Assembly: GCA_902795965.1 (NCBI GenBank) | Contig: CADBNI010000044.1 | Location: 1-32,332, forward strand | From: an uncultured bacterium | Lineage (GTDB): Bacteria > Cyanobacteriota > Vampirovibrionia > Gastranaerophilales > Gastranaerophilaceae | Reading direction: 5' to 3' | DNA: 32,332 nt | Shown: piece by piece, positions 2 through 31,258 of the stretch | Position numbering within the stretch: position 1 is the first letter of the stretch | Layout of the letters: each line of letters opens with the position of its first letter | The notes under the pieces: model-generated | The model's database searches: none | What the model was told of the DNA's origin: nothing | The model's input: only the letters and a program-made list of their open reading frames with translations | Program-made: the position numbers and the translations under genes

Positions 2-775
2 AGCAGTATAACAAACGGGTCAAAATTGAAAAGTTTGGGACTCGGAACGGCAGGCACTGCAACGGTAGGTATAGTAACAGGTGACGGAGTACCTATGATT
101 ATGACGTATTCACCACAATGTACTCAGCTTGAACCTTCGACTACGTTCAGTTGGACAAGCGTAGACGGAAAACCCGTGACGAATGCTACCACAAACTGTA
201 TAAGTGCGATATTTGATATCAACGGCGGAACAGGACCTAACAGAATAGGAAAAGATGTCAGAACGTTGAATTCATTATTCGGTTCGGTACAATTTCCTGC
301 AACTCCTGCAACCAAAGCGGAATGTGAAGAATTACAAAAGAAAGGTCTTGTGAACGGATGCAGTTATGATTCCGATTATTATGCAGGAGCGGTAAAGAAA
401 TGTAACGAACTCGGACTTCACCTGCCGAGTTTTCAGACTTTAGCGGTAGTAGCGGGAGCAAGATACGGACGTACTGACATAGGACCGTATACCTTGATTA
501 TGGTGAACGGGTACGGCGGTTATGCAAACTGCGAGGACTACTACAAGTCCCACGATTATAACGGACGCCTTGCCTCAACCGACAAAATCATTTGCGTGGA
601 CGGAAGTAGCATACCGAACGGCGCAGATGCTCCTATCGTCCTGACCGGCTACTTTTGGTCGAGTTCCGAGAGGACGGCTACTACGGCCTTGGTACGCAAC
701 ATCTACTCGAACAGCAGCTCGTGGGGCGAGGGCAGCCGTATCTACAACTACGTTCCTCTGTGCGTAGGTGATTAG
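2..775 (+). CDS. Pilin-like protein with C-type-lectin-like C-terminus (5' truncated by window edge)
   Basis: The frame is open from base 2 with no stop, so the true start lies outside the window; the first in-frame start-like codon (TTG at 26) is not a convincing initiation site. The segment around DINGGTGPNRIGKDV resembles the 'D-NG-GPN-G-D' segment that I recall from prepilin-like (type II secretion/type IV pilin) proteins of Gastranaerophilales, whose hydrophobic N-terminal helix would be upstream. The C-terminal half, with paired Cys, LPS and FWSSSE, resembles DUF1566/FISUMP-type C-type-lectin folds. Likely secreted or surface-exposed. The last 42 residues, from GYFWSSSE to the stop, are encoded by DNA that is clearly more GC-rich (about 57 % in 661-774, versus about 38-43 % in 181-360) and rich in NNC codons; see the separate variable-repeat entry. 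Which pilus or adhesin it belongs to cannot be told from here. Confidence 0.7.
   Translation, partial: SSITNGSKLKSLGLGTAGTATVGIVTGDGVPMIMTYSPQCTQLEPSTTFSWTSVDGKPVTNATTNCISAIFDINGGTGPNRIGKDVRTLNSLFGSVQFPATPATKAECEELQKKGLVNGCSYDSDYYAGAVKKCNELGLHLPSFQTLAVVAGARYGRTDIGPYTLIMVNGYGGYANCEDYYKSHDYNGRLASTDKIICVDGSSIPNGADAPIVLTGYFWSSSERTATTALVRNIYSNSSSWGEGSRIYNYVPLCVGD
647..772 (+). other. Candidate variable repeat (VR) of a diversity-generating retroelement
   Basis: These bases encode the C-terminal ~42 residues of the pilin-like protein. In the 19 codons from CGC (698) to TAC (752), 14 end in C, and many are what adenine mutagenesis of AAC codons would give (AAC, ATC, TAC, AGC, GGC), in an otherwise AT-rich genome that favours A/T third positions. 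Position (3' end of a C-type-lectin-like gene) and the FWSSSE motif fit known DGR targets. No template repeat and no reverse transcriptase were found in the window, so this is an inference; an ordinary FISUMP/DUF1566 terminus with unusual composition is the alternative. Confidence 0.45.
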
Positions 776-29080: not shown

Positions 29081-29107
29081 AAAAATCCCTTTTCAGGGAT
29101 TTTTTTT
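29079..29107. terminator. Bidirectional terminator between convergent genes
   Basis: Stem atccct (29085-29090) with agggat (29095-29100), extended by A and T runs on either side, so it can terminate transcription from both directions. The stop codon of the minus-strand gene lies in its T run. Confidence 0.85.
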
Positions 29108-31178
29108 ATGAGTAAAGTTTGAATGTTCTTTCAACGTTTTTATCTATAGCAGCTTTAATTGACTCGTATTCCGTTTGAAGTGAATTATGTTCCGTATCAA
29201 TATTTTTCAATTCAAGATCGTAACGTTTATCTTTGTTTTCAATTTTATTCATTGCGGTTTTATATTCAGCTTCGGCTTTTGTAACCGCAACACTATCGGT
29301 TTGCTGGGTAATATCACTACAATTTGAGTAAATCAAATTGTTCCAGTTGTTATTTTCATCAACCTGTTCCATAGTGATAACACCGCTTTCAAAGGCAAAT
29401 TGTATCCATTCCGGACTTGCTGCAAGTCCGTCTTTCAAAACCTGATATCCGCTTTTTTCTATACGATTAAACAAATTTTCATACCATTGAGCTTTTGCCT
29501 CACCGTTTTCATTATGATTATAAATATCAATCCAGGTAGTTTTCGGTTCACCGTATGTATCCATTACGTTATCCAAAACTATGTTCAAAAATACCTGATA
29601 CATGTCGTCAGTAAAGTTTGGATAACCGTTTCCGACACCGTTATAAACATCATTGATAGCATCCAAATCTTTTATTGACGGCATACCGTTGTTGGGTGTA
29701 TAAGTATAATCCGAACCTGAGACACTTAATGTTCCGCATGATTTACCTTCACCAAACATAAATGCAGCAAGTGCATTACCTGCATCAATATAATCTTTAT
29801 AAGCCGTTTTTATTGTATCATTTGTGTTAGCCCAAATTGTTTTATCGGGATCCCAAACTTTATATATAGCTTTTTCAAGAGATTTGACAATAGTATTGGC
29901 GGTATTTTTCAAGTTTGCAAGTGAGTTGTCTTTTTTAACCTGAATTTCCCAATTTGTACCGGTTGTCCAACTAATCCAAGATGTATCTCCGTCTTCATCC
30001 GTAAATTCTGCACCTTGAGCTAATCCTGATTTTATAATATTACCGGAATCATCATGTACATTAATAGTAGTACCGTTAAGTCCGCTAAATCTTGTTATAC
30101 CTTTTGCATCAACAACATTACCCGTTGAAGAATCAAGTGTATATCCGGCAGCAGCATTATAAATTGATGTGGCATAAGCACCACCGTTAGTTTGAATTAA
30201 TTTCAACAAATAATCAAAGTATGCTTGAGTTTCATTAGCCTGTTCTTCTTCAGCTTCAGTCGGTCTGTTGCCTAAAGTATAGATATAATCAGATGCGTTT
30301 GCAGAGTTTATAATGGCTTTTAATTTATCAAAGATACCGCCAGATTGCGTAAAATCATTTCTGTCAGTTGAACTTGAGATAAGAGCTTTTAATTTTTCGG
30401 TTGAAAAATCATCTCCAAACTGGTCGTTTACCAATTTGTCCAACTCGTAATCCATTGCATCGGCAATCAAGCCGTAGTAAAGAGTTTTCTTATCAACATA
30501 ATCTGTCATTAATTTCGTATAATTATACATTGCTTCGGAATCTTGGGTAATATCATATCCGTTAGCATCAATAGAGCCTTTGCCGTTCACGGGTACGGTA
30601 GCATTTGGCAAATCGGCAGCTTTCAATGCTGTTTCATCTTTACCGTAAAAAATCTTTTTCAAATCATCTCTTGTAAATCCTGAAGATTGGATTGATAAAT
30701 TACCTTCTTCATCATAATAATTGTACAAAACAGGATCTCCCGATGCATTTGTATAAATAGCGTTTCCGTCAATAGACGAACCTGTTTTCAGATTGTCAAA
30801 ATACGTTGTAGTTTTTTTCAATCCGTAAGCGGCAAGAAATGTGTCTAACTCCCCGCCTGATTTATCATAATTTTGAGCATCAGTTTCGGAAATTAAAACA
30901 CTGCCTGATGAATTTACAAGGCAATATTGGTTGTTATAAGGATTGTAAGAAGTCAATGCGTTAAAGGTTAACTGCTTATAACTTGCATTATTATCCGCAT
31001 CATAGTTGGCGAACATCAACTGAGCCTGATTTAAAGCCGTAACATAGGCTTCGCTCACCTGAGAGCTTTCAGAGGCAAGGCGCATCTTGTTATTGTTGAT
31101 AATTTGGGCTCTAAGCTCGTTATCAGACATACGCGATGTTATTGATAATAATCTTGCTTGTCCTGCCGCCATTCCCAT
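29106..31178 (-). CDS. Large unknown protein with conserved helical ends, 690 aa (axial-protein-like architecture)
   Basis: The start is the ATG at 31178 (MGMAAGQARLLSITSRMSDN), preceded by aaaggga at good distance; an in-frame GTG at 31196 lies upstream of that site and is rejected. The first ~65 residues and the last ~70 (TKAEAEYKTAMNKIENKDKRYDLELKNID...VERTFKLYS) are predicted helices or coiled coils, while the long middle is Asp/Asn/Gly/Thr/Tyr-rich with beta character. Helical termini that could pair around a variable centre are the plan of flagellar axial proteins (hook, hook-associated, flagellin), but I see no specific motif of those families. From memory, proteins beginning MGMAAxQARLLxxTxR are abundant in Gastranaerophilales. 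No signal peptide. Function unknown. Confidence 0.8.
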   Translation of the reverse strand: MGMAAGQARLLSITSRMSDNELRAQIINNNKMRLASESSQVSEAYVTALNQAQLMFANYDADNNASYKQLTFNALTSYNPYNNQYCLVNSSGSVLISETDAQNYDKSGGELDTFLAAYGLKKTTTYFDNLKTGSSIDGNAIYTNASGDPVLYNYYDEEGNLSIQSSGFTRDDLKKIFYGKDETALKAADLPNATVPVNGKGSIDANGYDITQDSEAMYNYTKLMTDYVDKKTLYYGLIADAMDYELDKLVNDQFGDDFSTEKLKALISSSTDRNDFTQSGGIFDKLKAIINSANASDYIYTLGNRPTEAEEEQANETQAYFDYLLKLIQTNGGAYATSIYNAAAGYTLDSSTGNVVDAKGITRFSGLNGTTINVHDDSGNIIKSGLAQGAEFTDEDGDTSWISWTTGTNWEIQVKKDNSLANLKNTANTIVKSLEKAIYKVWDPDKTIWANTNDTIKTAYKDYIDAGNALAAFMFGEGKSCGTLSVSGSDYTYTPNNGMPSIKDLDAINDVYNGVGNGYPNFTDDMYQVFLNIVLDNVMDTYGEPKTTWIDIYNHNENGEAKAQWYENLFNRIEKSGYQVLKDGLAASPEWIQFAFESGVITMEQVDENNNWNNLIYSNCSDITQQTDSVAVTKAEAEYKTAMNKIENKDKRYDLELKNIDTEHNSLQTEYESIKAAIDKNVERTFKLYS

Positions 31179-31258
31179 GACGATATTCCCTTTCACTTAG
31201 TAACTTTCATTATGATATATCGGCTGATTTTTATATATTCTTTAATAATTTGAGTTAA

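Follow-up and report, generated by a model that had tools for sequence, protein, structure and literature searches.

The window, by which we mean the whole 32,332-nucleotide stretch of DNA analysed here, begins within a gene that is almost certainly the target of a diversity-generating retroelement (DGR), a confidence that we attach to this explanation as a whole, as the best account of the evidence taken jointly. The gene (positions 2-775, forward strand) encodes a pilin-like fragment of 257 amino acids whose 5' end was lost at the contig edge. Judged from its sequence, this ORF is a hypermutation target with a variable repeat (VR) at its 3' end, and its template repeat (TR) is found in the same frame sense. 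The genome examined is the window's own, a fragmented draft of 1.81 Mb in 85 contigs that is 97% complete.

A variable repeat and its template

The VR occupies positions 646-772 (forward strand), within the lectin-like C-terminal domain, and is 89% identical to TR1, a 127-bp near-copy on contig C48 (53344-53470, reverse strand). When the two are compared without gaps, over 121 columns with 38 template adenines, all 14 mismatches fall at a template A (hypergeometric P = 1.3 × 10^-8). A first-pass annotation, made from the letters of the window, had proposed that the 3' end of the gene is a DGR target shaped by adenine mutagenesis, placed the repeat at 647-772 and called for a near-copy with mismatches confined to its A positions, together with a DGR-type reverse transcriptase (RT) and Avd. 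The predicted repeat was nearly exact, and the template, the A-only mismatches (14 of 14, on C48), the RT and the Avd were all found in the same genome, the latter two adjoining the template.

We accept the window VR because this near-copy with A-only mismatches exists, as GC content and codon traits alone are insufficient. The distinct composition that the annotation had seen at the 3' end is there, with a GC content of 55.6% at 560-775 and 44.6% at 2-559; the figures given for it, 57% against roughly 40%, do not hold, the lower one being valid for positions 200-399 only. Similarly, 13 of the 19 codons in 698-754 are of the NNC type, not 14, and the codon make-up of this segment is by itself weak evidence for a DGR target.

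The product of ORF 2-775 ends in ...GYFWSSSERTATTALVRNIYSNSSSWGEGSRIYNYVPLCVGD, and FWSSSERTATTALVRNIYSNSSSWGEGSRIYNYVPLCVGD is the end of the 257-residue fragment. In the alignments, TR1 and the VRs of C44 (the window contig) and C42 have an invariant 3' end in common, GTTCCTCTGTGCGTAGG (752-768, forward strand), which is a candidate IMH-like initiation site for homing. The VR 3' edge and the stop codon, GGTGATTAG (767-775, forward strand), correspond to GGAGATGAA in TR1, and the VR-type T that replaces a template A there is common to C44, C42 and C7; this shared T-for-A difference may be a mark of target versus template. The first and the last of the 14 window mismatches recur in the C42 VR, perhaps as marks of the repeat edges, and the other 12 likewise all lie at A.

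TR1 and its VR share a reading frame in which 11 TR1 codons are AAC, so that mutations mostly alter residues of the lectin-like domain at a small risk of a stop. Of the 11 codons that changed in the compared stretch, 10 did so nonsynonymously, including the stop codon at the edge of the VR; the reachable variants number about 1 × 10^19.

The TR1 cassette and its further targets

Cassette 1 on C48 has the order avd-TR1-RT1. Its Avd matches the Pfam family bAvd at 66.3 bits (cut-off 40) and the PHROG family 'Avd protein of DGR' at 2.4 × 10^-28, and scores 68.4 with NCBIfam DivGenRetAVD, under the cut-off of 80. DGR RTs carry [IVL]GxxxSQ in place of QGxxxSP, and the C48 RT has IGNLTSQ, a motif invariant in six RTs. 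This RT has a PHROG RT match at 4 × 10^-98, and among solved structures it is closest to 8ub7 (8 × 10^-38), the DGR RT of the Bordetella phage, with retron-type and group II RTs matching at only 5 × 10^-9 or weaker. On these sequence features, we class the C48 locus as a DGR. The RT1 frame is open across TR1, as a 443-aa open frame (L014:8678-9928, reverse strand), so that translation could run through TR1 and give RT1 an N-terminal extension.

A second VR of TR1 lies on C42, again with 14 of 14 mismatches at template A, and shares several substitutions with that of C44. C7 holds a diverged VR relative with 49 mismatches to TR1 in the ungapped comparison, 18 of them at A; part of these 49 stems from a 3-base insertion recognized in a later alignment, so C7 is left out of the tally of current VRs. 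The paralogues of the window gene comprise two tails (C42 and C7) and a head with a prepilin signal (C56). The head overlaps the tails of C44, C42 and C7 yet differs from each one, and therefore represents either another paralogue or a strain-level variant.

A second cassette with dispersed targets

A second RVT_1 match, on C10, is part of a complete cassette with the order target-avd-TR2-RT2. TR2 has eleven VRs, located on eleven contigs, in which template A is changed at 206 of 462 positions and non-A at 42 of 858 (Fisher, 5 × 10^-68). One of the non-A differences, a C-to-T change close to the VR 3' edge, is common to 10 of the 11 VRs and may be a template/target mark that resembles the edge difference of TR1. 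The targets on C41 and C10 are cut off by contig ends.

Two templates, TR1 and TR2, are thus predicted to serve at least 13 dispersed pilin-like genes, only one of which was observed next to its RT. These genes tend to coincide with contig breaks, so that the target counts are lower bounds, and neither their copy number nor the joining of heads to tails is certain.

A further six paralogues, with tips of a similar kind, are found on C40 (two), C2, C31, C53 and C58. A search of the assembly yielded no third template for them: the matches fell in targets or in TR2 and its VRs, barring one 19-base match on C46. Since an A occurs in only 30 of the 43 variable columns among the three paralogues that were compared, the six are not counted as proven VRs; they are possibly VRs of a third template that is unassembled or lost.

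The hairpin TTGGGGCTAAAGCCCCAA occurs, with up to two mismatches, at 12 sites in the genome (for example, C6:3803-3820, C7:831-848 and C17:222-239). Eleven of these are directly 3' of a gene of the pilin-like family and one is at a contig end; downstream of the window gene and of C42 the hairpin is missing. An intrinsic terminator is disfavoured, as no T-run follows the hairpin, and this leads us to lean towards a possible role as a DGR target-site element. Its position recalls that of the hairpin that the Bordetella phage BPP-1 has 3' of its VR.

Prepilin signals and a likely lectin-like tip

The window gene's own N-terminus lies off the contig; a prepilin signal is present on the C56 paralogue and on the complete TR2 targets, which supports the earlier description of the gene as pilin-like. 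The complete TR2 targets start with a prepilin signal of the GFTLAEVLITLGIIGVVAA type, such as GFTLAEVLITLGIIGVVAAVSMP, and the C56 head, the one nearest to the window gene, carries KRKTAFTLAEVLITLGIIGVVAAVTMP, which scores 22.7 bits with Pfam N_methyl (cut-off 21.2) and 18.8 with NCBIfam TIGR02532 (cut-off 16.3).

The tip domain likely has a C-type-lectin-like fold, as suggested by profile matches and by a structural model. Pfam Lcl_C matches seven of eight TR2 tips (best, 6 × 10^-8); the homologue at L190 scores 29.2 bits, below the cut-off of 34.9, and the Pfam search gave no Lcl_C match for the window protein. The model of a homologue (pLDDT 69) matches the C-terminal domain (CTD) of Bd2740 and InvE with a Z score of 9.2, the Lcl CTD with 8.7 and Mtd with 7.0. 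Foldseek by itself returned no match at 0.001 or better, and the AlphaFold model of the window protein is poor (pLDDT 45), so that the fold is likely rather than proven.

Relatives of the host and of its reverse transcriptases

The uncultured host is placed with Candidatus Gastranaerophilales, the gut Melainabacteria, in agreement with the 'gut-type bacterium' expected by the first-pass annotation. Outside this genome, the nearest RTs belong to Candidatus Gastranaerophilales and related MAGs. A tree of 48 RTs joins them with RT1 and RT2 (97/93) and keeps them separate from the sampled proteobacterial and viral-contig RTs. RT1 and RT2 fall into separate subgroups, each with an RT from the roe-deer MAG RGIG4789, and are thus not a recent duplication; in a scan of viral contigs the best RT had 51% identity, and thus a close phage origin did not emerge. 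RGIG4789 has three DGR-type RTs (L177, L180 and L182); one of them clusters with RT1 and the other two with RT2. The distribution of DGR RTs is patchy: one is present in 9 of the 97 relatives and in 21 of the 146 genomes of the family.

Pairs of TR and VR near the RT target genes with a prepilin signal in L190, L192, L197, L199, L202, L204 and L208, seven loci that are partly non-independent, as L190/L192 and L197/L199 are close pairs. The DGR of L191 also targets a prepilin-signal gene, with a different tip, and outside the Gastranaerophilales group the prepilin motif is present in 0 of 49 targets. The automatic TR/VR finder returned no pair in the flank of many loci, and the pilin share among Gastranaerophilales DGRs is therefore not to be read as a rate. 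Four relatives (G029, G035, G042 and G051), with genomes 89-95% complete, each have between 15 and 40 genes that encode this lectin-like tip but yielded no DGR RT; their DGRs may have been lost or may lie on missing contigs, or the variation may come from elsewhere.

L190 and L192 belong to two species of the same genus with an orthologous DGR-pilin, and the comparison of these relatives, which are not the window species, stands in for one between strains. Outside the VR, their genes differ by 57 synonymous and 8 nonsynonymous codon changes, compared to 1 synonymous and 10 nonsynonymous within it (Fisher, 4.5 × 10^-7). The two templates differ at one aligned base, which is not an A, and the VRs show the same difference, as TR-to-VR copying predicts. 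These patterns support TR-to-VR transfer in the L190/L192 pair.

Proposed mechanism and alternative explanations

By analogy with DGR biology, the RT with Avd would reverse transcribe the TR RNA, erring at adenines, and the mutated cDNA would enter at the conserved 3' end (window 752-768) and replace the VR of the target. The prepilin N-terminus would then direct the protein into the machinery of a type IV pilus or pseudopilus, through which the variable domain would be exposed outside the cell, each target adding one binding tip to a repertoire. The displayed tips would most likely serve attachment to changing partners and might possibly vary the surface met by phages or antibodies. More tentatively, we envisage genome-wide adhesion or antigenic variation, in which the lectin-like tips of some 20 scattered pilin-like genes are rewritten in trans by at least two templates, the 3' hairpin helps mark the targets, one cell line shows changing pilus tips and the arrangement recurs through Gastranaerophilales.

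A real DGR could also act on pseudopilin-like or other membrane-anchored surface proteins that share just the prepilin signal, with the variable domain lying outside a pilus filament, which we regard as possible, if short of probable. It would agree with N-terminal scans that score alike for GspG, GspH, ComGE and PilA, all far under the family cut-offs, and with targets that are scattered in the stretches read and not part of a pilus operon, whereas the prepilin signal of C56 passes its own cut-offs and points to processing by a prepilin peptidase; none of these features separates a minor pilin from a pseudopilin. That the DGR formerly diversified the window gene and is now inactive, its VRs being relics retained as fixed alleles, seems unlikely to us: C44 and C42 are without any non-A mismatch to TR1 in 121 columns, a state that would soon fade without renewed copying, both RT frames are open, and recent change in the same-genus pair is confined to template-A sites. 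What such an inactive system would explain is the divergence of C7 with its many non-A changes, the six paralogues that have no template in the assembly and the several substitutions common to C44 and C42.

Many related pilin-like paralogues exist in the genome, and the shared 5' parts of C44, C42, C7 and C56 appear recently exchanged or conserved, as might be expected if the repeats were alike through ordinary duplication and gene conversion among paralogues, with no adenine-directed mutagenesis. However, we consider this extremely improbable, as 14 of 14 mismatches lie at template A in both C44 and C42, 206 of 462 template-A positions are changed across the TR2 VRs against 42 of 858 non-A positions, and an RT and an Avd accompany each template. 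Ordinary duplication and gene conversion alone are refuted by this A-specific mismatch pattern.

Relation to known systems

Several aspects of the DGR reading preferred here have precedents: besides DGRs themselves, these are Lcl_C targets, genomes with several DGRs and DGRs that have several targets. The prototype DGR is that of BPP-1, with the order mtd-avd-TR-brt. Cassette 2 on C10 resembles it in its target-avd-TR-RT order, and the systems are further alike in A-specific TR/VR differences and in a VR within a lectin-like C-terminal domain, for which the homologue model matches Mtd with a Z score of 7.0. In contrast to BPP-1, the system described here is bacterial and was not found in a phage, most of its targets lie in trans on other contigs, and these targets bear a prepilin signal.

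Thiohalocapsa PB-PSB1 likewise has several DGRs in its genome and several targets per DGR locus, but those targets putatively act as antigen sensors in conflict systems, and the word 'pilin' is absent from the report (PMC10907252). Multi-VR DGRs with DUF1566 (Lcl_C) targets have also been described, with a mention of putative pilin structures for proteins of this kind (PMC6642488); they share with the present system the use of one template for several targets and the Lcl_C/DUF1566 tips, whereas neither a Gastranaerophilales system nor a dispersed prepilin family was found there. The cellular membrane-anchored targets of a large metagenome survey of DGRs resemble those found here in combining an N-terminal membrane anchor or signal with a C-terminal VR, but pili are unmentioned there and the survey states that remote targets could not be detected (PMC8144416). 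Remote targets are the main layout in this genome, where most lie on contigs other than that of the RT. A literature search, with most subscription papers outside it, found no publication on DGRs in Gastranaerophilales, on type IV prepilin targets or on a scattered set of type IV pilin-like genes controlled by a DGR.

If this reading is true, gut Melainabacteria devote a dedicated mutation system to a repertoire of pilin-like surface proteins. They would then provide a testable model for attachment to changing partners or for variation of the exposed surface, as well as a natural set of parallel targets in which to study how a single template RNA picks among a dozen genes.

Other features of the window

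Rfam gave no match anywhere in the window, and the ORF at 29106-31196 (reverse strand, about 695 aa) had no Pfam match at 0.001. A 25-nt G+C-rich repeat of the CCCTCTCCCTCAAGGGGCGAGGGAA type occurs at 918-942, 1394-1418 and 1673-1697; it is found between genes and twice within the FAD-oxidoreductase ORF at 1028-2554, where it leaves the frame unbroken, as if inserted.
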